Positions 6,876 through 61,697 of a stretch of DNA of 64,000 nt are shown here, piece by piece (the stretch's first letter is position 1; each line of letters starts with the position of its first letter). The stretch is taken from the NCBI GenBank assembly GCA_021292105.1, contig CM037861.1, forward strand, positions 29,465,674-29,529,673. Direction: 5' to 3'. The stretch comes from Anadara kagoshimensis (lineage: Eukaryota > Mollusca > Bivalvia > Arcoida > Arcidae). The notes under the pieces were generated by a model, which ran no database searches, was not told where the DNA came from, and saw nothing but the letters and a program-made list of their open reading frames with translations. Position numbers and translations under genes: made by a program.

Positions 6876-6937
6876 CTGTTTTGATTTTGCAACACTACAT
6901 GGCTGATTTGGAATAGACATTATTTTTTCATCATAGC
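6876..6937 (-). repeat. Decayed relative of the hammerhead ribozyme repeat
   Basis: Read on the minus strand this lines up with the ribozyme repeat at 24576-24630: ATGATGA in place of CTGATGA, then TATTCCAAATCAGCCATG, then TAGTGTTGCAAAATCAAAAC. The core bases needed for cleavage are changed, so activity is not expected. An even more decayed trace lies at the matching place in block Y copy 1, near 3762-3825. Confidence 0.5.
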
Positions 6938-10184: not shown

Positions 10185-10925
10185 TTCTCCATATCATTTT
10201 TTAAACATTATATTTTGTTCATAACATATTTTAAAATATTTAAACATTTTCATTACATAATTTTTCAAACATGTCAGTTTGTCCATGACATCATAATTTC
10301 GAATATTGTATATGTTCATTACATAATTTTTTAAAATATGATAACTTGTTCATTACATATTAGTTTCAAACACTATAGCTTGTTCATTACATCATTTTTA
10401 AATATAGTACATTGTTTATAACATCATTTTTTGAAACATTACACTTCAGTAAATCGTTATTGAAACATTATAGCTTGTTCATTACATCATTTTTGAAACA
10501 TTACATTTGTTCACTACATTGTTTTTGAAACATTATAGCTTGTTCATTACATCATTTTTGAAACATTATAGCTTGTTCATTACATCTTGTTTAAAACATT
10601 ATATATTGTTCAGTACATTGTTTTTAAACATTATAGCTTCTCTATTACATCATTTTTGAAACATTATAGCTTCTCTATTACATCATTTTTGAAACATTAT
10701 AGCTTCTCTATTACATCATTTTTGAAACATTATAGCTTCTCTATTACATCATTTTGAAACATTATAGCTTGTTCATTACATCATGTTTAAAACATTACAT
10801 TTGTTCGCTACATTGTTTTTAAACATTATAGCTTGTTTATTACATCATTTTTGAAACATTATATTTTTAAATATTATAAGTTGTTCATTACATCGTATTT
10901 TCGAATATTATAGCGTATTCAGATT
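10185..10925. repeat. Minisatellite, about 33-36 bp unit, about 20 units
   Basis: The unit is close to TTTTGAAACATTATAGCTTG, then TTCATTACATCA. It is repeated across the whole stretch, most regularly at 10480-10860. A sub-family with TTCTCTATTACATCA in place of TTGTTCATTACATCA is expanded as four successive units at about 10635-10750, a sign of local unit duplication. The open frame over the first part is a by-product of the repeat. Confidence 0.9.
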
Positions 10926-14985: not shown

Positions 14986-15637
14986 TTGTCTTTAAACAGG
15001 AAAATGTTATCTATTAGGTGTTATCATAAAATTGTCGGTGAAGGAAATATTTCTTATCGACATAAACATCAATCTGTTTTGAGAGTTAATGAATCAATTT
15101 AGAAAATTCTTGTGTAAGGTAAAAAATATAAAATAATAATTTAAAGCTGTCACAACTGATAAAATTTTGATTAAAAATTGACAACAGCAAGAAGGACCGT
15201 TGTGGAACGACGGTGTTTTGCTTATATCGAGGCGGTTAATACTATCCGGATCTTATCACTTATATGTCGATCATGCAGAAAAACGGATTTAAAGAATCAA
15301 AGCTTATTAAATATACTTTGCAATACATTGTATCACGAAATAAGTGATAGAAACAAAACCTAGAAGAGCCAAACATGTTGCAACTAATAAATAGTATAAT
15401 GAGCAAGTTTGGAGATTGGAAACTGCCATAAAACTGATTGCATGGTTCGATTCGTAGTTGTTTCGTCGTTGTTGTATTATTAAACTGATATTCTTCTATC
15501 ATCTCATCACACATTGTTTCTTTTATAATATCTTATTGATAGCATATCATAAATGTACACATTGTTCGTTCGTTTTTCATAATAACCTCAGTGAAACATC
15601 TACCAGCAGAGATACCACCTCAGTGGTTTAAATTACG

Positions 15638-15709
15638 TATTATACCAGTGTTTATTTTACAGCACTAGGCTGACATTTCGGAACACGTTCCCTCATCAGT
15701 AGTAGAAAT
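15638..15709 (-). repeat. Hammerhead-ribozyme repeat, near-complete core
   Basis: On the minus strand it reads ACTA, CTGATGA, a helix-forming stretch (GGAAC and GTTCC), GAA, then ATGTCAGC and CTAGTGCTG. The two conserved core boxes CTGATGA and GAA are intact. The base corresponding to U16.1 next to the cleavage site is C, so normal closing of helix III is lost and cleavage is unlikely or weak. The homology to 24576-24630 extends over about 70 bases, including the flank CACTGGTATAAT (minus strand). Confidence 0.6.
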
Positions 15710-22595: not shown

Positions 22596-22961
22596 TTAGG
22601 TAACACATAAGGCTTCCACCAGGGTACACCATCCAGCTCTGTCCTTTGTCTTTCTTTCAAGTTCTCCCCAGCTGTATCCACAATCTTTCATATCTGTTTC
22701 TATTGTCCTCCTCCAAGTACATTTTGACCTTCCTGGTTTTCTTTTGCCAGCTGGAGTCCACCTTAGTGCTTTTTTAACATGCCTGATGTTGTCCATTCTT
22801 AAGATATGTCCTGTAAATCTCCACCCTCTCTTCTTAATCTCACTGTTGATGTTACTTATTCCTGTTCTTTCTGTAAGTTCGATGTTTGATACTCTGTCTG
22901 TCCATTTGATGTTCATAGTTTTTCTTAATAACCTACCTTCTACCCCTAAGTTTTCTGTCAG
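22596..22961 (-). pseudogene. LINE reverse-transcriptase protein, C-terminal tail
   Basis: The frame reads on the minus strand from LTENLGVEGRLLRKTMNIKW through KKRGWRFTGHILRMDN, ALRWTPAGKRKPGRSKCTWR and RTIETDMKDCGYSWGELERK to a normal stop after EALCVT. This is the characteristic tail that follows the reverse-transcriptase domain in many invertebrate non-LTR retrotransposon proteins, where a lysine/arginine-rich GKRKxGRxKxTWRRT phrase is typical. About 120 codons remain; the endonuclease and reverse-transcriptase domains are absent. The fragment is cut upstream at its boundary with MITE T, as expected of a 5'-truncated LINE or one trimmed by later events. The 3' untranslated part may run to about 22500. 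Clade (RTE-like or another) cannot be set from the tail alone. Confidence 0.85.
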
Positions 22962-22967
22962 CTACAT

Positions 22968-23179
22968 TACAGACCTGTCGAAAGTTTAACACTTAGCGAA
23001 CGAATTAGTGTCGAATCGGCAGCTCATTTCGGTCCCCGTTAGCGAAAACTTTTTGGTATGTGCTATCCATTTCTCAGTAGCTTTTTTACAACCAGCTTTC
23101 CATATCTCGGTCACTTGGCAGCCTAGCTGCGAATCGTTTTCCTATTCTAAGTGTTAAACTTTCGACAGGTCCGAACTGT
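22968..23179. mobile_element. MITE T, about 210 bp
   Basis: Left end ACAGACCTGTCGAAAGTTTA, right end GTGTTAAACTTTCGACAGGT then CCGAACTGTG. The interior carries AATTAGTGTCGAATCGGCAG and ATCTCGGTCACTTGGCAG. It abuts the cut end of the LINE fragment. Confidence 0.85.
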
Positions 23180-24065: not shown

Positions 24066-24403
24066 TTATTCTATGTGCTCGATTGCATAGGTTGTTGGTC
24101 CGTTAGTGGGAGGGTATTGGTTGGAACCCCGGCAGGGTCTGACCCAAGACTTGAAAGTGACTGTTCTTTCGCCAAGCACTCGACATTGGGTAATGAAAGT
24201 CACTGTCCTTTCGGATGGGAACTTAATATAAACGAGGTCCCGTGTCACGGTGGGCTTGGCACGCTAAAGAACCCTCCTATATAATGCCATCAGCGCAAAG
24301 CACGGGCAAAATGTCTGCACTTTCGCCTATAGCTGGCGACGTGTCGATATAAGTGAAATATTCTTGACTGGGACGTTAAACACCATTACTCAACTCAACT
24401 TAA
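24066..24403 (+). mobile_element. SINE-A, full-length tRNA-derived SINE
   Basis: A tRNA-like head (24075-24140) carries a B-box-like GGTTGGAACCCCGG followed by CAGGGTCTGACCCAAGACTT. A long body follows (CAAGCACTCGACATT, GTCCCGTGTCACGG, CGCTAAAGAACCCTCC), then a tail (CGCCTATAGCTGGCGACGTG, AATATTCTTGACTGGGACGT, TAAACACCATTACTCAACTC). The order head-body-tail is that of V-type mollusc SINEs with a conserved tail. Other copies: 25316-25497, 44530-44880 and 52917-53631. A SINE has no protein; it would depend on a LINE for movement. Confidence 0.8.
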
Positions 24404-24575
24404 CATAGGTTGTTGCCAAGTACACGTTAGTAGTGTATACTATTTGATGATAGTTAAAATTTGACACGCCCCAAAAACTAAGCTATACTACCTCATGCAA
24501 AGTATTGTATTAACTAAATTTGATTAGATTAATTTTGGTTCTTTTGGTTATCTTTTCAGCATCTTGAAAAAGTGG

Positions 24576-24630
24576 TTTCATAACTACTGATGAGGATTAT
24601 ATTCCGAAACGGTTGTCTAGTGCTGTGAAA
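24576..24630 (+). ncRNA. Hammerhead ribozyme, type I, core complete
   Basis: All conserved core parts are present in order. Helix I outer strand TTTCA (24576-24580), inner strand ACTA (24583-24586); core box CTGATGA (24587-24593); helix II GGA/TCC closing a six-base loop (24594-24605); core GAA (24606-24608); short helix III AC/GT around GGTT (24609-24616); cleavage base C at 24617, preceded by GT as in the usual GUC; inner helix I TAGT (24618-24621); internal loop GCTG; outer helix I TGAAA (24626-24630). Helix I is open, making this type I. Small type I hammerheads with a two-pair helix III are known from Penelope-like retroelements and animal retrozymes. The internal loop in helix I faces loop II, as needed for tertiary contact. 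Self-cleavage is inferred, not shown. Confidence 0.8.
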
Positions 24631-24948
24631 TTAAAACTGGTAACATTTGTAATTATCGTTTACTTGAGATATTTTTTGTTCTATTACCTTAATTACATAG
24701 GTTGTTGCCATCTGGTGTATTGTGTCTATTTTGCTGCAAATAACCTTGTATCTAATTGAACAGATAGAGGTAGGATCATTGTTTATAATTAAAAATAAGT
24801 GGCTTTGTTTACCACACTGTCCGAGTACAATTAATTACAATTGGATATCAATACTATCCCCATGTTTGTATGAAGACGTTTCTGTACTTGCAAGTATTCA
24901 ACAGGTCAATTCTTTTCTTCTGATGAAACCTTATTGTATTATGAATAA
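24631..24948. other. Spacer between ribozyme repeat and MITE T
   Basis: The ribozyme repeat continues for at least 15 bases (ATTAAAACTGGTAAC), shared with its relatives. The rest is AT-rich. An 83-codon plus frame (24722-24973) runs into MITE T and is not a gene. Confidence 0.4.
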
Positions 24949-25160
24949 CAGTACAGGCTTGTCAAAAGTTTAACATTAAGCTAACGAATTAGTACCGAAT
25001 CGGCAGTTCATTTCGGTCCTTCGTGAGCTGCATGTCGACACCAGCTGTGATCTATCTATCGGCAGCTTTTCGGCCACTAGTGCCCATATCTCAGTCGCTC
25101 TGCACCCAAGCTTCGACTCCTTTTCGTTTGGTCAGTGCTAAACTTTCGACAGGTCTGTAC
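24949..25160. mobile_element. MITE T, 212 bp
   Basis: CAGTACAGGCTTGTCAAAAG at the left and CTAAACTTTCGACAGGTCTG at the right. Interior AATTAGTACCGAATCGGCAG, GCAGCTTTTCGGCCACTAGT, ATCTCAGTCGCTCTGCACCC. Slightly worn terminal repeats. Confidence 0.85.
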
Positions 25161-25315: not shown

Positions 25316-25497
25316 AAAGGTGGCTCAGTTGGTAGAGTACTCGCTCCGTAAGTGGAAGGTCGTGGGTTCGAACCCCGACCAGGTCTGACCCAAGATTTGA
25401 AAGTGGGTAGAGACTATTCTTTCGCAAAGCATACGACAATACGAAATAAAAGTCACACGAACTTAGGATAACAAGGCTCCGTGTCACTGTAGGTTTG
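25316..25497 (+). mobile_element. SINE-A, 3'-truncated copy with intact tRNA-like head
   Basis: The head has a clear A box (GGTGGCTCAGTTGGTAGAG) and B box (GTGGGTTCGAACCCCGACC), better kept than in the copy at 24066. The body follows as CAGGTCTGACCCAAGATTTG and GCAAAGCATACGACAATACG and ends near GTGTCACTGTAGG. The head could be mistaken for a tRNA gene, but the variable part is wrong for a cloverleaf and it continues into the SINE body. Confidence 0.75.
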
Positions 25498-25857: not shown

Positions 25858-25996
25858 CTCGGCAGGTTTTTCGGCATCTATGTATCGTCAGTTTTTCGGT
25901 CACTAGTTTTCCATATATTACTTGGCCACTCGGACGCCGAGGTTCGACTCTTTTTTTCATCAGCCGAGTTAAAATTACGACAGGTCTGCACTGTAC
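25858..25996. mobile_element. MITE T, right part only
   Basis: ATCTCGGCAGGTTTTTCGGC, GGTCACTAG, CTTGGCCACTCGGACGCCGA, then TTACGACAGGTCTGCACTGT. The left end is gone. Confidence 0.6.
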
Positions 25997-26579: not shown

Positions 26580-26683
26580 ACAACTTATCTCCCTTATCTT
26601 AATTCTCTAGTGTTTTAACGATATAAAAACTGCGTGCAACTACCGTGATTGTCATTGATCTAGAAGACTTTCAGCAAGAAAAA

Positions 26684-27700
26684 ATGCCTAGAGTCAGGGT
26701 TCGGGGAAGGAATGCTAGACGTGTCCAAGATGTCAGACCACGACGTCGCAATGCAAATCATGCTCCAGCGCATGATGAACCAGAGCAAGTCGTACAAAAT
26801 GTTGATGCCAATTTACCCAATCCTGGACCCCCTCATGTACTGCCTTTACATGTCGAAGCCATTTCGCAAGAAATAACAAGAAATGTGTTGCAGCGAATTC
26901 AAACCATCCAGCCTATCCAAGCCGTTGCAGCGCCTGCTAACATTAACATGGAGCAAGGTAATACAGAGCATGCTAATAACTTGCAGATTTTTAGTACTTT
27001 GCATGAATTAGGATACAATGTTCAAAATAATGTCAAAATCAAGATTATAAATAATGAGTATATTGATCTTGGAATACTGATTTCCAAAGTATCCAATCTT
27101 GATGACGATTCAAAAAATATTTCTATTAAAGATGGAAATCTTGTAATTACTAATAAGTCTCGTCCTACTAAAATTTCCGATTTTCAACAGTTGACTGACG
27201 CCATGCTTATATTTGCTAGCATTTACACCTCGGCCCATTCATTAGAATTTTCTGGTTTATTGAAATATATCCATACAGTATGGCTCGGTGCATCACGTAC
27301 ACCAGGCTTGGGATGGAAATCGTATGATATTCAGTTTAGACTAAAAAAGAACGGAACCCTGAGAAGTCCTGGGCGGTTGTCGATCAGGAGCTATGGTTGC
27401 TTTATATGTATGCAAACTTCAATACCATTCCTAATACAACTGCTACCACTTCTAACAGTATGTACAAATGTTACGACTATAATTACAAGGGTGTTTGTAA
27501 TAAACTTAGATGTTTTTACTTGCATTCTTGCATTAAATGCTCCATGACTCATCCTCAACTTAGATGCAGGGTAGTGAATGCTAGCAATATTAAGTTTAGG
27601 TCTGAAAATCAACAACAGCAATGGTCCTCTCGTGCGGCAGCTGTAGCTACTAGCAATGATAAACTTGACAGCACAAATGTCGGTAAACCAGCACAGTCTG
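26684..27700 (+). pseudogene. YR retrotransposon: gag-like region
   Basis: Begins at ATG 26684 in an AAAAATGC context. The N-terminal part is very basic (MPRVRVRGRNARRVQDVRPR), followed by a proline/glutamine-rich section. Toward the end lies a cysteine/histidine cluster (CYDYNYKGVC...CFYLHSCIKC) like the zinc-finger-type cluster of DIRS-order gag-like proteins. Part of the fossil element. Confidence 0.75.
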
Positions 27701-27719
27701 CTAATCAGTCTCGCTAATA

Positions 27720-28640
27720 GTCCAATTAAAGTTAATTCACTAAAAAGTTTTTTGAAGTTATATCCAAATTTAGATGATGCTGAATTACTATATAATGGTT
27801 TTAACCATGGTTTTAAGTTGAATTATCATGGTCCTCGTCAAAGGACTATTTGTTCTAATTTATCTTCTCTAAAAAATCGTGAATTAGAAGCTATAGAGAT
27901 AGTTATGAAAGAGGTTAATTTTGGCCGTGTTGCTGGCCCATTTTTATTTAATCCTTTGCCAAATTCAAGGCTTTCTCCAATCGGTTTAGTTCCAAAGAAA
28001 GATGGATCTTGGCGGGTAATACATCACTTATCATACCCTAAGGGGTCAAGTATAAATGATTTCATAGATCAAAATTTATGTTCAGTCAATTATACATCTT
28101 TTGACACCGCTTTGTAGGATCTGACTAAGTTGTGTAGCATTACTTCTGGTGCACCCGTTAATTTGTGTAGCATCAATACTATTGACGTGTTGCTGTTGGA
28201 GCTGATGTTAGCAAAAGTAGGCAAAGGTGCATTAGCGGCCAGGCTGGATGTAAAAAGTGCATTCAGGTTACTTCCGATTCATGCGTCCGATTTTGAACTT
28301 TTAGGTTTTAAAGTTGCCAATTATTATTTCACTGATAAATGTTTACCATTTGGGTGCTCTATATCGTGCTCATTGTTTGAAAAATTTTCTACTTTTTATA
28401 GTTGCTTTTTAAACACAGGTCACAAAGTGATAATATAGTACATTACTTAGATGATTTTTTATTAGCTGGTAGGGCAAATAGTGATGAATGTAAAAGCTTA
28501 ATGGAATGTTTTTCAGATATGTGTAATGAAGTGGGAGTATCATTAGCTCATGATAAAACGATTGGGCCATCTCCTATATTAGTTTTTCTAGGTCTTGAAA
28601 TAAACACAATAGAAATGAATGTCAAAATCCCTTCCGAAAA
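27720..28640 (+). pseudogene. YR retrotransposon: reverse transcriptase
   Basis: Visible landmarks: SPIGLVPKKDGSWRVIHHLS (the fingers region), ARLDVKSAFRLLPIH (motif A with the first catalytic Asp), LPFGCS, and HYLDDFLLAG (motif C). This arrangement is typical of DIRS-order reverse transcriptases. Fossil. Confidence 0.9.
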
Positions 28641-28899
28641 GCTTATTACACTTAAACATTCATTAGTTTGTCTTTTGAGCAAAAAGAAAACAACTTTGAA
28701 AGAACTTTAGTCTGTTGTTGGCTTACTTCATTTTTGTACCAGGGCCATTTCACCAGCACGTGCGTTCAACAGACGTTTTACGACACTATGACGGGCCTTT
28801 CAAAACCTTTTCACAAAATAAGAATTAATCTTGAAATGAAGGATGATATACGGGTATGGTTAACATTTTTTGAGTTATTTAATGGTATCGTAAGTTATG

Positions 28900-29320
28900 A
28901 TATCTCTAAATGTGTTTCAAGCTTTGAGATGAATCTCTTTACTGACAGTGCCGGTGGGTCAAAGTTTGGCTGCTCGGCAATTTTCAATACGCACTGGGTA
29001 TATCTGCAGTGGCCTGCAAAGTGGTATGATAAGCCGATTTTAAAGGATGTTACATTTTTAGAACTGGTACCGATATTGATGGCTTTCCATATTTGGAGTT
29101 ATCAATTACAAAATAAGAAATTTATCTTCAATACTGACAATCACGCCTTGGTTTCCATTTTAAATACTAAAACATCAAAATCCAAAAGAGTTATGTATTT
29201 ACTTAGACCGTTAATCCTTCATAGTATCTTATACAATATTCAGTTTAGATCTGTACATATCAGAGGTAAATATAATGTTGTTGCTGATGCTCTTTCTCGA
29301 CAGCAGTGTTCAAGATTCCA
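28900..29320 (+). pseudogene. YR retrotransposon: RNase H
   Basis: LFTDSAGGSKFGCSAIF gives the first acidic residue, FLELVPILMAFHIW the second, FNTDNHALVSIL the third, and NVVADALSR the last. The order matches the RNase H of DIRS-order elements. Fossil. Confidence 0.85.
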
Positions 29321-29429
29321 CCAAGCCTTTCCACAGGCGGATGCATTTCCATTACCAATACCGCAAGCGTTTCACCAGCTGCTATTGAACGTCGAACTAA
29401 ACAAATTTTAGCTGCTTCTATTTCTGTAC

Positions 29430-30315
29430 ATACTGCAAAAGCCTATATAACTGGACTTAAATCATTTCAGTAATTTAAATTGTCTCGTAAATTTCAAATT
29501 ATTTGGCCCCCACTCATATCGCATGTTGTTGATTTTACATCATTCTTATCCGTCAAGGGGAATGCTTCAAGTACAGTTAGAACGCATGTTTCTGCTATTG
29601 CGTACCAGTGTAAGATGAACAGTGTTACTGATGTTACTCAGTCGGTTTGAGTCGATTAGATAAGCGTGTTGATACTAGAATGCCTATAACTTTAGACATT
29701 TTGCTAAATATTCTTAAATTTCTTCCTGATATTTGCGTTTCAAAGTATGAATCAATAATGTTTGCTGCAATATTTTCTCTTGGTTTCTTTGGATTTTTCA
29801 GAATTGGAGAATTGTTCGCTACGCTAGCTCACTTAGTGATCAAGGTCATTCATTGCAGAGCTATAACATTCGTTTTGTTGATTGTATCAAATCACTAGAA
29901 ATAGTTCTCCCACACTAAAAAATCACTAGAAATAGTTCTCCCTCACTCATAAATGATCAATCTGGGCATGGGCATATAATACGTATCCCAGAAACACGCA
30001 TGTGTACTTGTCCTGTTAGGGCCGTGCTATCTTATTTGTCTATAAGGCCATGTTATGTTGGTCCTTTTTTCTGTCACTTGTCTGGTAATCCAGTAACCAG
30101 ATACCAGTTTGTCTGTATTCTTAAAAAGACCCTTACTGCTGCTGGTATTGATTCTACACTTTATGGATCTCATTCGCTTCGAATTGGTGCAGCAACCACA
30201 GCTGCTATGGCTGACATTGATAATGATAAAATTGCAGAATTTGGTCGTTGGAAATCTGGTTGTTACAAGTCGTACATAAGAATACCTAGTGTAAATATGG
30301 TCTCATTTAGTAAAT
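29430..30315 (+). pseudogene. YR retrotransposon: tyrosine recombinase
   Basis: The C-terminal half shows the hallmark phrase HSLRIGAATTAA (His-x-x-Arg) followed by GRWKSGCYKSYIR with the nucleophilic tyrosine region. The N-terminal half includes FSLGFFGFFRIGEL with the first conserved Arg. In intact relatives this enzyme inserts a circular DNA copy without a target duplication. Fossil. Confidence 0.85.
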
Positions 30316-30349
30316 AAATATACTAATTCAGTCAAAGATTTTCAGATTT

Positions 30350-30890
30350 ACACACAAATGTTTGGATTGTTGGATCTTCATTAGTGAAGCATGCATTTAT
30401 AAGAGCTATTCAATCGTCATATGGGAAGGATTTGCAGCTGGGGAGTCTTAATACTTATATATTATGGCAAGGCAAAGGCGGAATGAAGTGGTCGGAGGTG
30501 TTATGTAAAATCAAACATTTACTTAAATTTATTGACCCGCCAAATTTTATCATTTTGCATTGTGGCGGTAATGATATTTGTGATTGTAAATCTTTGCAAT
30601 TGATTAATAATATTATTTTTGCTTTGAAAACTATGTTTGAACTTCTTCCAAATACGAAAATTATTTTGTCACAAATTTTACCAAGGTTAAAATGGAGATA
30701 TGAGAAAAATCATGTTGCTGTTGACAAAATCAGGACAAGGGTAAACAGCAAAATAGCTACATTTCTCCTTAAAAATGGAGGCTATTATATTAGATACCCA
30801 GAAATTACTGAACTCAATACTGGTCTCTTCCAACTTGATAATGTGCATTTAAGCATACAACGTGAATTTATCTCCCCCTTTGTTTGAGTC
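30350..30890 (+). pseudogene. YR retrotransposon: SGNH/GDSL-type hydrolase stretch
   Basis: WIVGSSLVKHAF corresponds to block I, ILHCGGNDICD to block III (GxND) and DNVHLS to block V (DxxH) of SGNH hydrolases. Similar hydrolase stretches are known in some Ngaro-type elements; what they do for the element is not settled. Fossil. Confidence 0.75.
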
Positions 30891-31115
30891 TTGTCCATGG
30901 CTGTGATTTACCAAGTCAATTGGACTTGGGTATTGTTTGACCTTTGGGTCCATTGTATTGAATTGCAATTGATTATTTTTGTAGACTTTGTGTCTACCAT
31001 TTTTATAGACCAATTGGGTCTATCTTTTATCTATACTGCAAAATGTTTGTGGCATTTTTAATTTCTTGCTTGTTATCCTATTGTTTACATTTGATTTAAA
31101 CTTTTGGCAATTTAA

Positions 31116-31189
31116 TTTCTATTCTGGTGGCGCTGGATAAGATGAATCTTATCCATATGGCGGTATTGATGCTCTCACCAGTATAGAAA
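31116..31189. repeat. Nested inverted repeat near the element's 3' end
   Basis: An outer stem (TTTCTATTCTGGTG at 31116-31129 with CACCAGTATAGAAA at 31176-31189, 13 of 14 pairs) encloses an inner perfect stem GGATAAGAT/ATCTTATCC (31135-31143 and 31146-31154). The inner stem also occurs in the second piece at about 33685, whose similarity stops soon after. It could mark the element's end or an internal recombination site. Confidence 0.65.
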
Positions 31190-31480
31190 AAAGACACCTT
31201 TTAAAACATTTAGTTTTAAATAAATTCATACTCAGTTTGGTAAACATCTGCTACCAGGGTTTACCTTTATCTATTTAACATTTAATTACAATTTTACCTA
31301 TTGTTGAGGATGCCCTTTCAAAGATTCAATTTGGAGTCTTGGCTCCTTTATTTACACAGCCGTGGCCAGATTATGCCAACTTAATAATAAATATATAAAT
31401 TACACATTATGTTTATTGGTTATTTTTTATATCATTTAATGACAACTTCAGTATGCATTGTCCAATTATCTCCCCCTTGT

Positions 31481-32084
31481 GTTACAACCTGGTCTTAGAT
31501 AATAACATTTTTGAAGAATTAAAATGTCTTAACCACTTTATCATGCATTGTATTAACACGTTGTTTATTCAAAACCGGGAAAAATAAAAAAATAAAAAAT
31601 GAAAAGATTAAATAAGTAGATGGGGGTACTGAAGTAATATCGGTTTATTGCTTTAAACGTTCTGTCTGTAACTGTTGTGTGATCATAGTAATCACGGTGT
31701 AAAATTTGTAAACACTGTGCTAAAAGACAGTCTATTGTAAAAATACGGCAATTAAGTGTTAAGTGTCAACAGTGAATAATACTGCTTCGTTTTCCGTTTC
31801 TAGATCTAGATTATTTCTTAACGCGAAAAACAATGTATAATGAAAGTGGCTAAGTATAATGTCATTATCATGAACATGTTTATTGTTTACAGAGAAAGGG
31901 GATAATATTGTTGTATTTTCACAAATCGACTGCCTTTTAGCACACAATTTATACAATTTTACATCGTGATTAGTATGATCAATCGACAATTATAGACAAA
32001 ACGTGGGCGTTTTAGATGTAAACAGTGCGTACAAATAGACGCATTGGGTGTTTTTTTTTTTTCAGACAAGTCCTAAAAATCAAA
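31481..32084. other. AT-rich stretch, nothing recognised
   Basis: A 76-codon minus-strand frame (31759-31989) has no recognisable domain. No gene is called. Confidence 0.4.
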
Positions 32085-32152
32085 TTTAAATTACATCTTG
32101 TTTTAATTTTACAGAGCCAGACGGCCGTCTCGGAAACAATTTTTTTTAAGAT
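32085..32152 (-). repeat. Hammerhead-repeat relative with altered core
   Basis: The plus strand reads TTTTAATTTTACAGAGCCAG, ACGGCCGTCTCGG, AAACAATT, parallel to the repeat at 52144-52212. On the minus strand the helix III region has become ACGGCCGT, fully self-complementary, but the CTGATGA box is lost. Activity is not expected. Confidence 0.5.
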
Positions 32153-32459
32153 GTTAAAAAAATCCAAAGGTCCAGGTAATTTACTAAAATAAGCTAAATA
32201 CTTTGCATGAGGGGGTGTACCTTACATGTTGAAAAATTTCAGATTTAAACCGTCAATAAACTTAAAAAATATTTCATTTCTGACAATACAATATTTTTGC
32301 CTACTGAGTTACTGAGCCTACTGTATTTAACTGAGTTGTCAACATTATGGTTGGTTGGTTGAATGTTGCATCATCAATTTTTCAGCTATTCGCGACGAGA
32401 ACTATTTTATTAATCTCTATGGATGATTCTATGAACAATTTTGTGTGTACATGTGAACT

Positions 32460-32690
32460 GTGACCCGTTTTATGGCCTGCCTTGTACTAGCGCGCACTCA
32501 GGACGACTTTTACGTGCTCACAGAGTTAGCACGCTACAAACAAGCCTACCATTCCCTGAGTCACATTATACGGACCAACGGCAAGGAAAATTCACTTTCC
32601 CACATGTGGTCTGAGCGGGGCTCGAACTCACAGCGGTAAGAGACCCTGGATTTGTAGACTGACCTCTTATCCATTAGTGTCATCTGGGGG
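32460..32690 (-). mobile_element. SINE-B, copy truncated at its tRNA-like head
   Basis: Minus-strand tRNA-like head seen as CTCGAACTCACAGCGGTAAG (B box complement) and TAGACTGACCTCTTATCCAT (A box side). The body has CAACGGCAAGGAAAATTCAC and CTTGTACTAGCGCGCACTCA. The first bases of the head present in the copies at 43962 and 52400 are missing. Confidence 0.75.
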
Positions 32691-32901
32691 TTGCCAGTGT
32701 ACCATGTGATAAATACCCCTTACGTTTTGTGCGAGACATTTAAGAAAATATTTACATCACAAATTCACGGAACAAACCGTTATTATTAATAAGCGTCAAT
32801 TAGCGTGATTCTATTTCCGATGGAAATAAATGATTCACAACAACGTTAAGAGTATCACATGGTACACTTACACGCCTCATTATAAAAGATTTTTACTTAT
32901 A

Positions 32902-33716
32902 TCAAGCATGCATTTATAAGAGCTACTCAATCGTCATATGGGAAGGATTTGCAGCTGGAGAGTCTTAATACTTCTATATTATGGCAAGGCAAAAGCGGAA
33001 TGAAGTGGTCGGAGGTGTTATGTAAAATCAAACATTTAATTAAATTTATTGACCCGCCAAATTTTATCATTTTGCATTGTGGCGGTAATGATATTTGTGA
33101 TTGTAAATCTTTGCAATTAATTAATAATATTATTTTTGCTTTGAAAACTATGTTTGAACTTCTTCCAAATACGAAAATTATTTTGTCACAAATTTTACCA
33201 AGGTTAAAATGGAGATATGAGAAAAATCATGTTGATGTTGACAAAATCAGGAAAAGGGTAAACAGCAAAATAGCTACATTTCTCCTTAAAAATGGAGGCT
33301 ATTATATCAGATACCCAGAAATTACTGAACTCAATACTGGTCTCTTCCAACCTGATAATGTGCATTCAAGTAAACTGGGTAATGATATTTTCCTATACAG
33401 AATTCAGCAAGCATTACAACAATTTCTGTTATACAACGTGAATTTATCTCCCCCTTTTTTGAGTCTGGTCCATGGCTGTGATTTACCAAGTCAATTGGAC
33501 TTGGGTATTGTTTGACTTTTGGGTCCATTGTATTGAATTGCAATTGATTGTTTTTGTAGACATTGGGTCTATCATTTATCTATACTGCAAAATGTTTGTG
33601 GCATTTTTAATTTCTTGCTTGTTATCCTATTGTTTACATTTGATTTAAACTTTTGGCAATTTAATTTCTATTTTGGTGGCGCTGGATAAGATGAATCTTA
33701 TCCATATGGCGGTATT
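32902..33716 (+). mobile_element. YR retrotransposon, second partial copy (3' part only)
   Basis: It matches about 30388-31168 of the larger element at very high identity: the SGNH stretch (HCGGNDICDCKSLQ) and the following untranslated part through GGATAAGATGAATCTTATCC. Upstream domains are absent. The similarity stops abruptly on both sides (AAGCATGCATTT at the left, GGCGGTATT at the right). It is a truncated fossil; near identity to the first copy suggests either a recent second insertion or a local duplication. Confidence 0.85.
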
Positions 33717-36700: not shown

Positions 36701-37168
36701 TTTATATTCATGTTTAAGTACGATATTCATGGATTAAAACGCATGCACACGGAACAAATATATCTATTTTAATCGAATGCATGAAACAATAGACTATTTG
36801 AAATTAAAATTATTTTTTACACAAATAAATGGGTATATTTTGTTTATTTTCAAAATATTTGTCTCATGTGTTTGGATTAAAACGAGTCAGCTAAAACATA
36901 TACCAAATGAAACAAAATTTAAAAGAGTTTTTTTTTAAATGTATCATTTTTCATTCAATGCATTACACGTTAGACTATTTGAAATAAAACCCATTTTTCA
37001 CAAACATAAAAGAAATTATTTTGTTTATGTTTGAAATATTTCAATATATGACGAATATTTTTCAATAAAATCCCCAGTTAAAAAAATTATATAAAAATAT
37101 TTTGCTTTCCGAATGAAAAAATTTTATAAAAATAAGGTATACTCCCTTATTTGAAGTATTCTCTAAAC
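36701..37168. repeat. Segment shared with 54110-54440, left part
   Basis: GTTTGGATTAAAACGAGTCA, AATTATATAAAAATATTTTG and AATAAGGTATACTCCCTTAT match 54150-54440. The segment continues after the MITE as 37402-38190. Confidence 0.65.
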
Positions 37169-37170
37169 TA

Positions 37171-37399: not shown

Positions 37400-37401
37400 T
37401 A

Positions 37402-38190
37402 TTTGGTTAAATGTATTTTGGTCATTTGGATATTTTTTCAATCACTTGGGAAAAATGGTTCCTAGGTACTAACTATCCATAACTCGGCCACTCGATGATT
37501 GGTTTTTCGTTCCAAAAGTTTTAAAGTTTCGAGCGGTAATAACCTACGAGTTCGAGCATTACTGATTATAATTTGTGTTAATTCATTTGTTATTGAATTA
37601 GCGTTAAAGGTCATAATCTCCTCCATAATCAAAAACAAACATACTAATCCATGTCTGAATCATAATCAAGAAGCAAAGTAAACACTTTGGAACTGACAAG
37701 TTAGGTTAGACACGTGAACTTCCACCAGGGAAGTGAGGCCGGGTGCTCCGGAACGGTAAGCACCTCCTGTTTAGCTAGCTTCACCCGTCACGTGTGTAAT
37801 CAAAATTGTGTGAAATGAACATGGAACTATGAGATGTCTAATATGTCCAGGGCAATCCTGGACACAGAGACATCAAACTTATCAACAATACTGTGATGAC
37901 GGCCATAAAACGTTTTTAGAGCCTGTAAATAATATAATCCTTTTGGTTGTAGATTTGAATTAGTGAGACAATACTATTGCAAAAATCGCTAAAATTAATA
38001 TGTGTACAGTTTATATATTAAAAAAAATAAAACATGAACATGATAAAAAAAGTCAAAGCAAACCAGTAACAAGATAGCCATATACCGAGATCTCTGAGTA
38101 AGACAACGCTGGGTAGATATAATTACAATAGTATCTTTTAGTGCCATTCAAGCATTTTTGTTGGTTTGTTAAACACTATTATTGGAATTA
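37402..38190. repeat. Segment shared with 54450-54960, right part
   Basis: GGTCATTTGGATATTTTTTC matches at 54472-54491 (GATCATTTGGATATTTTTTC), and CGCTAAAATTAATATG at 37987 matches CGCTAAAATTAGCATG near 54745. An R1 copy interrupts only this copy of the segment. Confidence 0.7.
37629..37925 (+). mobile_element. R1 dispersed repeat, full-length
   Basis: From TCAAAAACAAACATACTAAT through CCACCAGGGAAGTGAGGCCG, CACCTCCTGTTTAGCTAGCT, GTCCAGGGCAATCCTGGACA to GATGACGGCCATAAAACG. It is longer by a short stretch (AGTTAGGTTAGACACG) than the copy at 18423. The paralogous segment near 54,670-54,700 lacks it. Confidence 0.85.
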
Positions 38191-43340: not shown

Positions 43341-43672
43341 ACTTGCATCTTAAAATAAACTTCACTTCTTTGAAAACAATGTCAATGATAAATAAATTTG
43401 AATTAAAAATGCGTTTTACGATATACTAGAGATAATAAATTAAGGATAATGAACTTTCGTAAAATTAACTTCATGAATATGCAATTTAATTGCCAACGAT
43501 ATGTTTGAAGGCGTTTATCATTACACCAGCAAGTTATATAAAGTATGATATTATGTCATAAATAACATACTAAGTGCAAAACTGACTTTTCATTAGACAA
43601 AATGAACATACGTAACAGGTAATATTGTTAAGCTTTAGCAAAATTATTCCATTAGTTTAGCATAATAACATA

Positions 43673-43740
43673 TATTATACCAGTTTCAATTTTACATCAC
43701 TAGATGGCCGATTTGAAATACAATTTTCATCAATAGTCTT
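43673..43740 (-). repeat. Decayed hammerhead repeat, unit A
   Basis: The minus strand reads ACTATTGATGAAAATTGTAT, TTCAAATCGGCCATC, TAGTGATGTAAAATTGAAAC. CTGATGA has become TTGATGA and the GAA box is altered. It has the same place in units B and C. Confidence 0.6.
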
Positions 43741-43859
43741 TTGACCAAAATAATGAAATCATAAAATTTATTGCGTTTCTACTTGAATTTTAATTAAGGC
43801 GTTCATTGTTTTATGTTTATACATGTATTTGTGGTTTCTAGGCCACCGGATGTTAAATA

Positions 43860-44529: not shown

Positions 44530-44880
44530 GAGTTGAGTTTAGTAATGGTATTTAACATCACAATCAAGAATATTTCATTTACACCGAGACGTCGCCAGCT
44601 ATAGGTAAAGGTACAGAAATTTTGTCTTTGTGTTACGTTGATGGTATTATACGCAAGGGTTCTTCATCGTGCCACGCCTACCGTTACAAGGGACCTCATT
44701 TATTTTGACTTTCCAGGATCCATTAGAAACCAAATCTTTCATTTTGAAATGCATAGCGCCTAGTGCATGGCAAAAAAGCAGTAACTACACACTGTCGACT
44801 CTTGGATAAGTCCCGGTCGGGATTCAACTGCCTCAAACTTACGGAGCGAACACTCTTTCAACTGGCTACCGCAGTGGTTA
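44530..44880 (-). mobile_element. SINE-A, full-length copy (unit A)
   Basis: Minus-strand head: GCTACCGCAGTGGTT complement, CGGAGCGAACACT, and the B-box side CCCGGTCGGGATTCAACTGC. Tail complement on the plus strand: ATTTAACATCACAATCAAGA, GACGTCGCCAGCTATAGG. It predates the duplication that made unit B. Confidence 0.8.
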
Positions 44881-49664: not shown

Positions 49665-52143
49665 CAAATAACATAAAATAAGATAAAAGTTAAAAATCAA
49701 AATCAAAATTCTTATGCATGCTCTGATTCAATTTGAGAGTTGAAACACAATATCACAATTTTAAGAAGATTAGTTCGTTTTAACAAAATATAACAACTTC
49801 TTTAAATTTGATCTTAAATAATTAAATCGGAACAAACAACTTAGAAACTTTCTACGACATATCTTATTATTTTTGCATCCCTAATAATCTCATTCTTAAA
49901 TATTTATTACTTCTATTGGTTAAATTTTAATTAAATTATGAATCTCTTTAATAACAGTTATATGATGTGATGTAAACTGGTAAAAATTATTTGGAAATCT
50001 AAAGATGGTAATTAACCAAATTTTGCAATTTTAAGTATAAAAACATAAAAATATACACAATCCGTTGGAAATTTATATCTAAAAAAACAAAAAAATATAT
50101 CACAATTAAAGAAGATAAGCTCTGCAATATAAAGTTTGTTTTAATTGAGTGAATATGGTTTTTCTTTTATTAATTAAATTTTAACTATGACGTAAATCGG
50201 AACAAACATCTTAGGCCTTTTGTACGATATCTGGTTTTTTTTCTTATATTTGCTGTCTTAGTCAACATTTTTCTTAAATATTTATTACTTTTAATGCTTA
50301 CAATTTATTAAATCATTAATCTCTTTAATATCAATTACTGGATTTGATGAAAAGTGGTACGTATTACTTGAAAGTCTATAGATGGTAATTAGCCATTGTG
50401 TTTTAAATTCCTTACCCTAATTTAATTCTATTGGAAATGCATACTGCGGAAAACGAAACTAAACAAATTGTGGTATATATACAATATTTTCGGGTTGCAA
50501 TGCTACTTTGCCCTAAAATAGAGTAATTTTAGTATAAAAAACTACCATAACTAGAAATAATATTTGAAAGGTAATCCTCACAGTCTATTTTCATCTTTGA
50601 AATTTGGTATATTTTGATAAATTGCTGTGATATGATCCCCAGTAAAATAACACGTGTTTGTTTCCAGTACACACGTACCCGTATGAAAAACATCAGCGAG
50701 ATAAGCAATGTTCATAATCACGGCATTTTTTATATATTTAAAATTCCACATTCATGGGCAAAGGCCCATTATATCGCCGGTATCGTAAGAGTTGTGTTTA
50801 CCGTAACTAGATGGTCACAATGAATTTAAATCCCCATTGCAGTTCATACGACTCTTAATTACCCATCGTTTTCTTATTTTCTATAGACCACTAAAAGAAA
50901 TTAGAACAACGTCCCCTGTGGCTGAAAATAAAATTTAAAAAATCGTGGTGTAATTTTGCCATTTAAGGATTTTTTAAAACTTTTTTCTAGCAATTTAGTT
51001 TAAACCCAATATACTGCAGTAGATTTCGGAATAACATCGCCTGTAGCGAAAGATGTTTTTAAAATATATCATACACCAAAATATAAATCTGGTTTTCAAA
51101 TTTAAAAAAAGCTGAAATAACAAAATTGTATAACAACACGGCACAATACAAAGCATGGAGCGAGATATGTAAAATGACGATAAATAGATTAGGACATATT
51201 TTAACAAAACATTCTTTTATTGTTATATTTAATGTCATTGCACAAAATGAATATCATAAATTATTATAATTTAAGAAATAACCGACAAATACACGTAATG
51301 TTTACGACACATCGCATGACGTCACAGGCTAAGTAAGAGAGTACGTTAGTAAAACGTAACAGTCATAGTTGTATCGTTTGTTTTAACATGGTTGCTTGTT
51401 TAATATGAAAGAAAACTTATATGTTATATCGAATAAAAGATTACCTAAAGATGAATCCCCAAATATATGAAGTTTTGTTTCATGATGTACTTAATATACA
51501 GACAGGGACCTGTTGTTAACTTAAGCAAGTTGCTTAATTTTACATTGCTGCTGACTCTCCAGTGTCAGAATAATATACAGGTGGGGGCAGCAACCTTTGC
51601 AACTGTTGTCTTGGTGACCTAGCACCTAAAAGTCGCCCTACGTACATGCTAGTACAAGGCAGACATCGGCATAATACACACTGTCAGTCATATTGTGGTT
51701 ACATCGGGGTAGATTAGTGCAGTCTGGACACTGCATCGCATTGCGAATGTCAAAATGAGCCTACATTTTCTAAATGTGTCTAATATGATATAGTATAATA
51801 TGAAGATTTGTTATGGATCATCTTAAAGTGAACTTCACTTTTTTTTAAAACAATGTCAATGATTTATTAATTTGAATGAAAAACGCGTTTTACGATACTG
51901 AAGATAATAAAGTAAGGATAATGAACTTTCGTAAAATTAACTTCATGAATATGCAAGTTTATTGCAATCGATATGTTTGAAGGCGTTTATCATTACCCCA
52001 GCAGGATATAAAAAGTATGGTATTATGTCATAAACAACGTACTAACTGCAAAACTTTATTTTCATTAGACAAAATGAACATAAATAACAAGTAATCACAT
52101 TTATGCGTTAGTAAATTATTCCATTAGCTTAACATAATTACAT

Positions 52144-52212
52144 ATTATACCTGTTTTAATTTCACAGCACTAGATGGCCGATTTGGAATACAATTCCTTA
52201 TCAGTAGTCTTT
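52144..52212 (-). repeat. Decayed hammerhead repeat, unit B
   Basis: The minus strand reads ACTACTGATAAGGAATTGTA, TTCCAAATCGGCCATC, TAGTGCTGTGAAATTAAAAC. Helix II is longer (GGAAT/ATTCC) but the core is changed (CTGATAA, and CAA/AAA for GAA). Confidence 0.65.
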
Positions 52213-52292
52213 GAACCAAAATAACGAAATAATTAAGACGTTCATTGTTGTATGTTTATATTTGTGGCTTCTAGGCAACTGGATGTTAAATA

Positions 52293-54099: not shown

Positions 54100-54970
54100 A
54101 GGCAAATAAAAAGAGTATATTTTGGTTTTTTTAAAAAAATACGTGTTTAATGTTTTCGGATTAAACCTCGTCCGTTCATAAATATTCCACATGTAACAAA
54201 CATTTTTCTTTCCAAAGTGAAATGATCAGTTTTCATCTAATTCATTAGAAATTCTGAAATAAAACTTATTTTTCAGAAAAACTAATGAGAATATTTTGAT
54301 TTTTTAATAATATTTTAATATATGACTAACATTTTCGACTGAAATCCTACCAGTTCAAAATATTATATATAACAAGCATATTGCTTCCAAAGTTAAAACA
54401 AAAATGTCAAATATAAGGTAGACTCTATCATTTAAAGTATTGTATTAGCTGAATTGATTAAATATATTGTGATCATTTGGATATTTTTTCAAATGCTTGG
54501 GGGAATATGGTTTCACAATTTTCTAGTCACAAGCTTTCCTTATCAATGCCACTTAATGTTTCCTATTCGTTTCCATAGTTTCGACCGGTTGTTATGTGCG
54601 AACTCTAGTATAAGTGATCACAATTTGTTTAAATTCACTTGTGATTGAATTAGCATAGAAGCCATAGGTCTTCTTTGTACCCTGATTATTTTTATATTCA
54701 TGTTGGATTTGATTTGAATAAGTGATACAGTATAATTGCGAAAATCGCTAAAATTAGCATGTTTATAGTATATTACATATTGTACCAGTTTTATCGTCGA
54801 TGTACCTAGAAAGCAATATATTTTCCCAAGAAGTTGAGGAGATATTCAAAGGAACAAAATATATAGAATGGAAAAAGAGGGAAGAATTATAAAACTTGAA
54901 TATGATGAAAAACCCGAAGCAAACCAGTAACATGATAGACATACGAGTATACAGAGATCGCTTTTTATAA
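54100..54970. repeat. Segment shared with 36.7-38.2 kb
   Basis: Collinear with 36701-38190 but without the MITE (37171-37399) and without the R1 copy (37629-37925). This makes it a paralogous empty site for both. Confidence 0.75.
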
Positions 54971-57835: not shown

Positions 57836-58320
57836 TAAGAAATAACATTCTATTTGAGTGTATTCATTCGGTATTATGAATGAGAGTCAGGAGTAGCATA
57901 TTCAATGAACTGCGAAGCAGTTCATGTTAAATATGCTATTCCTGACTCTCATTCATAATACCGAATGAATACACTCAAATAGAATGTTATTTCTTATATT
58001 TACAATCTTAAAAAATAGTGATAGCATGTCTGAAAAGTAAAATTATCGCTACAATAATTTATTTCATTCAACATTCCGACAAACATACTGGGTTGATGGA
58101 ACAGCCTTGTTCCAAATAAGGATAATTACGTCGGACTAAACTTGGATGCTGACCAATCAAAGAATGAATGACGTAATAGGATGACATTCTGTGACGTAAT
58201 CGGATAGTTAAACGTTACGTAATCAGAGGTCATGACCCCACACTGTATTCAAGAGCAATTGAATGCCAGTAAAAACAAATAGGTTCATCTAAAGAAGGTC
58301 AATTCCAATTGTAAATATTT
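57836..58320. mobile_element. Palindrome-bearing insertion, about 485 bp
   Basis: Units A, B and D lack it. Its left third (57836-57996) is a 161-base, nearly perfect palindrome: TAAGAAATAACATTCTATTT, GAGTGTATTCATTCGGTATT, ATGAATGAGAGTCAGGA, centred on an extra hairpin CTGC-GAA-GCAG at 57910-57920. The remaining 320 bases are not palindromic and contain CTGACCAATCAAAGAATGAA and three TGACGTAA/TTACGTAA-type sites (58162-58220). No coding is evident. The right end lies near ATTGTAAATATTTCAATTTA. Confidence 0.8.
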
Positions 58321-59216: not shown

Positions 59217-61652
59217 TACTCTGATTTTTTCTGCTCTTTTTTCGAAGAATGCGATCAGATTCTGCAGATCAACATGTAAAAGCGGTTATAACTTTTGTTC
59301 AGTAGACCGAATGACCCACTAACCATTTCTTGTTACAATCAGAGAAATCTACAAAACAGGCATATTTATAATGAGATAAGAAAAATGCATTATAAACACA
59401 TAATAGTATTGTAATTGTTATTGTCACTGAAAGTGTGAGCACGTTTTTTTAAATACTCTGCACATTCAATATTTTAGCGTTCTGCATCAAGGAAATAGTA
59501 GAAATCTATTTGTGACCTTTGAACTTTAGTACGGAAAGATGGGAATCTAATATGGCTGTTAAAATTGAAATCGAAAGTGGGAGCATGTTTATTGAAATAC
59601 CCAACATTACACATGTTTAAGGTTTTTATCTAAAGCATGTGGTCATAATTTAACTCTGCGACAGTGCGAGGGACAATAAATGTGATGATCGATCTCCTTA
59701 ATTCTGTTGAAATTGTGATAAAGATGATGAAAAGGTCAAATAAGTCTCGATAAGTATTGTTGATTCAATACAAATTGTTTCGGTATCTATAATGAATACT
59801 GCTTTTCCAAGTAAATGAACAGAAGGCTGGCAGTTGATGATAATAACGATGGTAGAGTTATTGTTGGCTGGACAAACGGGTCAGATTGGCTGTCCTTTAC
59901 AATTTGGTTTTATTTGTATTGATTAGAGCGTTATCTCTCAGGCTCTTCAGATATTTCCAATTACCATATGTATTTTGGAGATATAACGACCAAAGATGAT
60001 AAACGTAGTTCTGATACTGACAAAAATAAAACAAATTGTCACTTCCACACATTTCATGAAAATCAATAAAGAATCTAGTTAACAAAGAAACTGTTTCATA
60101 ACCCATTTAGATAAAACTTCTGTGTTCTTAATAGTTTCATTTTTTCTTTAGTAAATTAGAAAGCTTTATCAATTGGAAAAACTACAGTCTGGCCAAAACT
60201 AGTTCAAGTCAATGGTTGGTAGATAAATTTCTTTAATTTGCTTTATTCAAATTTTACAGACATTTATAGGTAGCGAAATAAAAATAACAAATTCATCTTT
60301 AAACCACTCTATTAATAGCGTTGTATTGTTATCGCGCAACATAGGCGAATTTTAAGAAAAGAATAAATACACGATCCTGTTGAAATTTTCATAAAAATAT
60401 TTTTTTTAAAAAGTATAAATAATAAAACTGATTCATTTCGAACGTTGAAAAACAATATCGAAATTAAAGTAGATTTGTTCTGCAATTTTAAAGTCTTTTC
60501 AACAGAATATTGATACTTTTTATAATTAGTTTTTAACTATGACGTAAATCGGAAAACATCTTAGATCTTTTGTACGACTATCTCTTTTTTCCTATTATCT
60601 TAAATTCCATAATCAACCTCTTTCTTAAATATTTATTACTGCTATTGCTTAAATTATATTAAACCATGAATCTCTTTAATAACGATTACCAGATTTGATG
60701 AAAAATGGTAAAAAATATTAGGAAGTGTATAGACAGTAATTAGCCAATATTTTTTTAATTCCTTATCCCAATTTAATTCTATCGGAAATCGGAACAACAA
60801 TACATGTAGCGGAGCACGATAATAAACAAATTGTGGTGATAATTTTCCAATTAATGGATAATTTTGATAGTTTAATTAGTAATTATTTTCTAATTTTCTG
60901 TATACCACAATAAAAAATTAAACCAGCATCGCCTGTAGATGAAAATAAAAATAAAGAAATGTCAATTTGGAATGGTGACATTTTTACATATTAATTATGT
61001 TTAATTCCAAATGTAGTGCAGTCGGGTACCGTAGCGAAAACTGTGGTTGAAAGAGTGGAGCCTGTGATTCAACACGGGCAGCAACATCAGCTACTGCTCT
61101 TTCGGTGACCTAGCACCTAAACGTCGTCACCCTAAGTGCATGCTAGTACAAGGCAGACATATGCATAATACACACTGTCAGTTATATTGTAGAAACATTT
61201 GGGTAGCCAAGTGCAATCTGGCTGATATTGTACCGCAGTGAGAAGATTAAAATGCACCCATATAAGCCTTAAACTTACCAAAGATGTCTAATATAGTTTA
61301 GTTAAACATGAAAATTTGTTATGGATCATATTAAAATAAACTTTTCACTTCTTTGAAAAACATTGTCAATTGATAATAAATTTGGATGAAAAACGCGTTT
61401 CACGATACTGGAGATAATAAAATAAGGATAATGAACTTTCGTAAAATTACCTTCATGGATATGCAATTTTATTGCCATCAATACGTTTGAAGGCGTTTAT
61501 TATTACGCTAGCAAGATATATAAGGTATGATATTATGTCATAAATTACGTACTAACTGACAAACAGAATTTTTATTAAACAAAATGAACATAAATGACAC
61601 GTAATCACATTTATGCCTTAGCAAATGATCACAATTGCTTCGCATTATAACA

Positions 61653-61697
61653 TATTATACCTGTTTTAATTTTAAAGAACTAGACGGTCAATGAAAC
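61653..61697 (-). repeat. Truncated hammerhead repeat, unit C
   Basis: Plus strand ATTATACCTGTTTTAATTTT, AAAGAACTAGACGGTCAATG. Only the helix I / helix III side remains; the CTGATGA side is gone. Confidence 0.5.

Follow-up and report, generated by a model that had tools for sequence, protein, structure and literature searches.

At positions 24576-24630 (+ strand) of a 64,000-base stretch of the Anadara kagoshimensis genome, analysed as a whole and here called the window, lies a type I hammerhead ribozyme motif, E24. It sits in a short, putatively retrozyme-like segment between two copies of a direct repeat, with the following features at the locus:

24098-24402, + strand: inferred tRNA-type SINE copy, inserted at the left repeat; resembles the pieces at 25345-25497 and a copy at 44531-44715 (80%)
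24403-24418, + strand: left 16-base direct repeat, ACATAGGTTGTTGCCA; target-site duplication or tandem-unit remnant
24419-24694, + strand: putative retrozyme-like monomer of 276 bases, 29% G+C, non-coding, defined by the 16-base repeats and by composition
24576-24630, + strand: E24, type I hammerhead ribozyme with every core base present (sequence, RF00163, descriptor scan, helix check)
24617-24618, + strand: predicted self-cleavage site between C17 and the next base, computed from the hammerhead core
24695-24710, + strand: right 16-base direct repeat, a perfect match to the left one

Read from the sequence and re-checked by script, the motif begins with TTTCA (24576-24580), TA, ACTA (24583-24586) and CTGATGA (24587-24593), followed by the helix II segment GGATTATATTCC (24594-24605), which closes with three pairs (GGA/TCC). 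After helix II come GAA (24606-24608), AC (24609-24610), the loop GGTT (24611-24614) and GT (24615-24616), and the 3' end consists of C17 (24617), TAGT (24618-24621), GCTG and TGAAA (24626-24630). By script, helix I is made of canonical pairs in two parts, ACTA/TAGT and TTTCA/TGAAA, separated by an internal loop TA/GCTG, and helix III is two pairs, AC/GT, capped by GGTT. E24 thus has all that defines a type I hammerhead: CUGANGA, GAA, the A15.1-U16.1 pair, H17 and three helices, of which helix I is open. The hammerhead core fixes the position of the cut, directly after C17. An earlier sequence-only reading had listed CTGATGA, helix II, GAA, helix III and GTC as all in place, and inspection and script both agree; its predicted 5'-OH product start at 24618 follows from C17 at 24617, its two-part helix I and two-pair helix III are backed by the sequence and by relatives in the window, and its non-coding setting holds, with no stop-to-stop open reading frame (ORF) of at least 100 amino acids overlapping the element.

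The surroundings are rich in decayed mobile elements. Pfam searches of all 20 stop-to-stop ORFs of at least 100 amino acids in the window recognised no host gene, no Penelope-type protein and no reverse transcriptase with a GIY-YIG nuclease, in line with the earlier remark that no such protein is nearby. Reverse transcriptase was matched weakly by two ORFs (23.7 and 23.2 bits), GDSL-type hydrolase at 20.1 and 22.4 bits, tyrosine recombinase at 21.5 and RNase H at 19.3; all these matches lie within 28.1-33.5 kb and under the curated cut-offs. The region 26627-33515, starting 2 kb from E24, is a probable decayed DIRS-like retroelement; it holds the sole reverse transcriptase matches among the 20 ORFs and is partly duplicated (30387-30853 and 32904-33370, 98% over 467 bases). 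An ORF at 22596-22961 (- strand) has no Pfam match at E 0.01 and looks like the C-terminal end of a LINE protein. A probable MITE, a short element with inverted repeats and ends like ACAGTACAGACCTGTCGAAAGTT, occurs at 22964-23179, 24948-25160 and 25915-25991, with similar ends at 14.9, 18.0, 43.9, 52.3 and 59.1 kb. Further away, 38843-64000 is a large segmental duplication, in which many block pairs are 80-91% identical and others less so, and 57836-57996 is a 161-base near-perfect palindrome (93%) with a weak mir-335 match (34.9 bits, cut-off 64); it is probably not a microRNA but an inverted-repeat element.

How far the motif can be trusted by itself was assessed with general models and with chance expectations. 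In the covariance-model check proposed by the sequence-only reading, Rfam RF00163 (Hammerhead_1) found E24 in the right register, but at 16.7 bits (E 0.08, in an 86-base scan against 4227 families), under the curated gathering cut-off of 34 bits, which is a database threshold and not a biological definition. The E24 hammerhead is absent from the whole-window Rfam lists. Rescaled by our arithmetic to one family over 64 kb, the E value corresponds to about 0.014 chance matches per window. A descriptor demanding the core, helix I of at least 4 pairs, helix II of at least 3 and helix III of at least 2 (at least 4 if long) matched once in the window on both strands, at E24, and four times in total, once with a short helix III, in 150 simulated first-order Markov windows. 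The evidence from the motif alone is moderate. In addition, the hammerhead pairing of the 55 bases has a predicted energy of -2.6 kcal/mol against a minimum of -9.8, that is, 7.2 above the predicted minimum, and a 60-base segment around E24 folds no better than shuffles (z -1.09; 30 of 200 as good). Circular folds of the 276- and 292-base units likewise show no stability beyond that of shuffles (z 0.06 and -1.31); excerpts of the retrozyme literature describe the RNA circles as highly self-paired. The energy gap to the minimum fold and the ordinary circular fold speak against activity of E24.

Judged by sequence similarity, the ribozyme segment is a dispersed repeat, which was not part of the earlier reading. 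BLAST of 24403-24710 against the window returned relatives of the ribozyme part, all on the opposite strand, at 52.1, 43.7, 15.6, 61.6 and 32.1 kb; the upstream arm had relatives at 54.4, 37.1/37.4 and 32.2 kb. An nhmmer profile seeded with E24, E52, E43 and E15, which are found again of necessity, added E61, E32 and E06, each at E 1.6e-5 or better; profile matches at 54793, 46005, 3971 and 22257 (E 0.14 to 9.5) were too weak for the inclusion threshold and are not counted. The window thus contains six further copies or fragments of the ribozyme segment, at about four further independent loci, and pieces of the arm without it:

6876-6917, - strand: E06, 3' half only (nhmmer 21.4 bits, E 1.6e-5)
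15630-15708, - strand: E15, independent locus, 77% over 73 bases (nhmmer 75.6 bits; profile seed)
32090-32139, - strand: E32, with GAGAC-GGCC-GTC kept and the CTGATGA half gone, 81% over 36 bases (profile)
43659-43744, - strand: E43, paralogue of E52 in the duplicated segment, 76% over 76 bases (profile seed)
52131-52216, - strand: E52, 84% over 75 bases by BLAST (nhmmer 80.0 bits; profile seed)
61644-61692, - strand: E61, 3' part only, 79% over 42 bases by BLAST (also by profile)
54414-54491, + strand: 5' arm of the E24 element (24479-24558) without the ribozyme, by BLAST
37128-37170 and 37401-37460: further relatives of the 5' arm

E43, E52 and E61 all belong to the large segment duplicated across 38-64 kb and are therefore taken as a single locus, which gives about five independent loci (E24, E15, E43/E52/E61, E32 and E06). 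BLAST homology of E61 to E52 and E43 ends at 61687, within the ribozyme; in this 61 kb block, homology to E52 stops and homology to 55.6 kb starts at 61687/61688. The ribozyme relatives at 43.7 and 52.2 kb each have an end of the ACAGTACAGACCTGTCGAAAGTT type about 80-120 bases upstream. E32 also shares a piece of the 5' arm with E24 (24479-24506 and 32224-32197). Neither E52 nor E15, the two relatives submitted separately to Rfam, scores as a hammerhead. Four ribozyme-family patterns, one inverted-repeat-element pattern and one SINE pattern had no matches in a viral contig collection, nor had one ribozyme pattern in a genome contig collection; as these collections are viral or prokaryotic, absence from them says little.

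Four copies (E24, E15, E43 and E52) retain both halves of the ribozyme, and only E24 has an unbroken core. E52 is damaged at G8, G12 and A15.1, E43 at C3, G12 and A15.1, and the only core damage in E15 is at U16.1. Helix I keeps its inner four pairs in all four copies (16 of 16 cells), which says little because the pairs never vary among them. For the first three pairs of helix II the tally is 12 of 12 cells when one C of E43 is treated as unpaired and not counted, and otherwise 11 of 12, with a single two-sided change, from G-C to A-T in E43. Helix III pairs in 3 of 8 cells, and its loop, GGTT in E24, is the palindromic GGCC in E32, E43 and E52. By our count, 32 of 39 core bases of E15, E52 and E43 agree with E24, against 76-84% identity overall. 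The core is thus hardly better kept than the rest, the pattern that neutral decay of the copies would give, and shows no sign of selection on the ribozyme.

The limits of the element are suggested by the 16-base repeats, which are spaced 292 bases apart. What other copies share with E24 by BLAST (24479-24506 and 24602-24637 in E32, 24479-24558 in the 54 kb copy, 24583-24656 in E52 and E43) falls inside the 276 bases between them, as does the region of about 24431-24655 to which an arm profile widens the sharing; the arm-profile limits are not independent, as its seeds were cut at those same BLAST limits. The window holds 54 exact repeats of 14 bases or more spaced 150-450 apart, the E24 pair being one; 43 of these belong to the array near 10 kb, and by our comparison 8 of the 10 remaining others lie in local duplications. 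That array (10193-10863) consists of about 20 tandem copies of a 33-base unit. Flanking repeats of at least 10 bases within 400 bases on both sides were found at none of the six other copies, and thus at one of seven in total. The ends of the 276-base segment do not match the cleavage site, and ends set apart from it would suit a circular or uncut template.

Whether a second unit once stood beside E24 was addressed by several comparisons, complicated by the SINE, whose insertion carries a 12-base duplication, CATAGGTTGTTG (24086-24097 and 24404-24415), and which stands between the E24 element and a possible decayed left neighbour. The similar SINE-like pieces at 25345-25497 adjoin a weak tRNA match (25319-25380, 24.3 bits, cut-off 29). 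The SINE tail would point to mollusc DNA. Tandem Repeats Finder reports no array at E24. With the ribozyme profile, the positions 292 bases to the left and right of E24 gave no match, and none of the seven copies has another ribozyme in tandem with it. The left flank aligns to the unit with a score of 47 (as high in 2 of 200 shuffles), falling to 35 (43 of 200) when the shared repeat is excluded; the right flank gives nothing (91 of 200 as high). With the SINE removed, the score of the join was reached by 0, 58 and 4 of 1000 shuffles under three scoring schemes, and without the repeat itself it was not significant (149, 271 and 194 of 1000). The 60 bases preceding the left and right repeats are alike at p 0.003, and at p 0.015 to 0.05 for four other lengths, all uncorrected. 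A tandem array at E24 was dropped as a candidate, with Tandem Repeats Finder and the ribozyme profile negative and the flank alignments mixed. The search for tandem dimers suggested by the sequence-only reading, carried out within the window, gave no second ribozyme, and a decayed left tandem unit is possible.

Among known systems, the E24 element most resembles animal retrozymes, rather than something new. As described in excerpts of Cervera and de la Pena (2020, PMC7229834), animal non-LTR retrozymes carry type I hammerheads in repeats of 150-450 bp with low G+C, are arranged as short tandem repeats, and have target duplications, when present, of more than 4 bp; units given in the excerpted literature span about 170-400 nt. 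E24 shares with them the type I fold, the two-pair helix III and its tetraloop, and its element is small, non-coding and low in G+C, with dispersed copies and, at its putative ends, direct repeats longer than 4 bp. If the 16-base repeats are its ends, size and composition lie within the published range (150-450 bp, non-coding, G+C below 45-50%); the perfect 16-base repeat, present at E24 only, exceeds 4 bp but may be a tandem-unit remnant. Unlike the retrozymes of these excerpts, the copies here are solitary, no intact tandem unit was found in the window, and the other copies are broken or partial. The mussel Mytilus galloprovincialis has, according to the same excerpts, about 5000 hammerheads, usually in repeats of 350-390 bp, as against about 276 bases here, a likeness by description and not by comparison with mussel sequences. 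The short helix III and tetraloop, palindromic in E32, E43 and E52, also recall the satellite hammerheads of newt and axolotl, which stand in tandem repeats of about 330-350 bp, in contrast to the solitary E24 locus; by analogy with these, a hammerhead with so short a helix III may work better as a dimer.

Thus E24 is likely, though by no means certainly, a true type I hammerhead, carried by an old repeat of about 276 bases that is solitary and retrozyme-like. What is observed directly is the motif, its dispersed family and the repeats that flank E24; the locus is probably a relic, though its ribozyme core is unbroken. The earlier reading had left the setting between a Penelope-like element and a retrozyme. 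Of these, an old solitary animal non-LTR retrozyme is the better fit, in size, G+C, lack of an ORF and repeats, and the Penelope-like setting fits less well. A fragment of a Penelope-like element, whose terminal-repeat hammerhead would cleave as a dimer with a second copy, is nevertheless worth weighing, if unlikely: such elements and Terminons bear type I hammerheads, dispersed in animal genomes, the minimal ones being mostly dispersed motifs (excerpts of PMC7761336), and the palindromic GGCC loop of E32, E43 and E52 would suit dimer pairing. These motifs usually lack helix III or the contacts between the loops of helices I and II (excerpts of PMC7761336 and PMC6155905), whereas E24 has a helix III of two pairs as well as an internal loop in helix I and so departs from the usual minimal form. 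None of the 20 ORFs of at least 100 amino acids matches a Penelope-type protein by Pfam, though a fragment could lack such a protein or sit far from it.

About as unlikely is that the motif is a chance look-alike, incapable of cleavage, in an ordinary interspersed repeat. The Rfam score under threshold, the more stable competing fold, the broken state of the other copies and a core without clear excess conservation all point that way, and a chance rate of roughly 1 in 100 windows carries some weight if further windows are read. Against this, the independent E15 keeps CTGATGA, helix II and GAA around a different helix II sequence, with one core lesion, and by our count every residue of the unbroken core occurs in at least two of the four copies with both halves. 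It is very improbable, by comparison, that E24 is kept by selection as a cis-acting cleavage element of a host transcript, as reported for hammerheads in some vertebrate genes (excerpts of PMC6155905). Its being the only unbroken core among the four fits such a role, but E24 may simply be the youngest copy, and no ORF of 100 amino acids overlaps it, nor does Pfam recognise a host gene among the 20. Finally, there is a slim chance that what spreads, as solitary monomers, is a cassette of some 75-85 bases that holds the ribozyme (24583-24656 by BLAST, reaching 24572 by eye), as the alignments might suggest: E24, E15 and the E43/E52/E61 group have little beyond it in common at BLAST E 1e-3. If so, the moving unit would be smaller than the retrozymes of the papers cited here, or the ribozyme would have been swapped among element families.

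For the favoured retrozyme-like repeat, a + strand transcript would fold with helix II beside helix I and self-cleave directly after C17 (24617), so that one product would end in a 2',3'-cyclic phosphate and the other begin with a 5'-OH. Where the precursor is tandem or circular, cleavage at two such sites would free a unit-length RNA, which a host ligase could close into a circle, and a reverse transcriptase from another element might copy the circle back into DNA.

We make no claim that the family of E24 is undescribed; as it stands, E24 extends a known class. It is a weak-scoring hammerhead missed at the Rfam cut-off, yet the best-kept member of its repeat family in the window, which suggests that counts of decayed retrozymes in animal genomes may be too low. 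If E24 is active, it would represent one more family of self-processing small RNAs.
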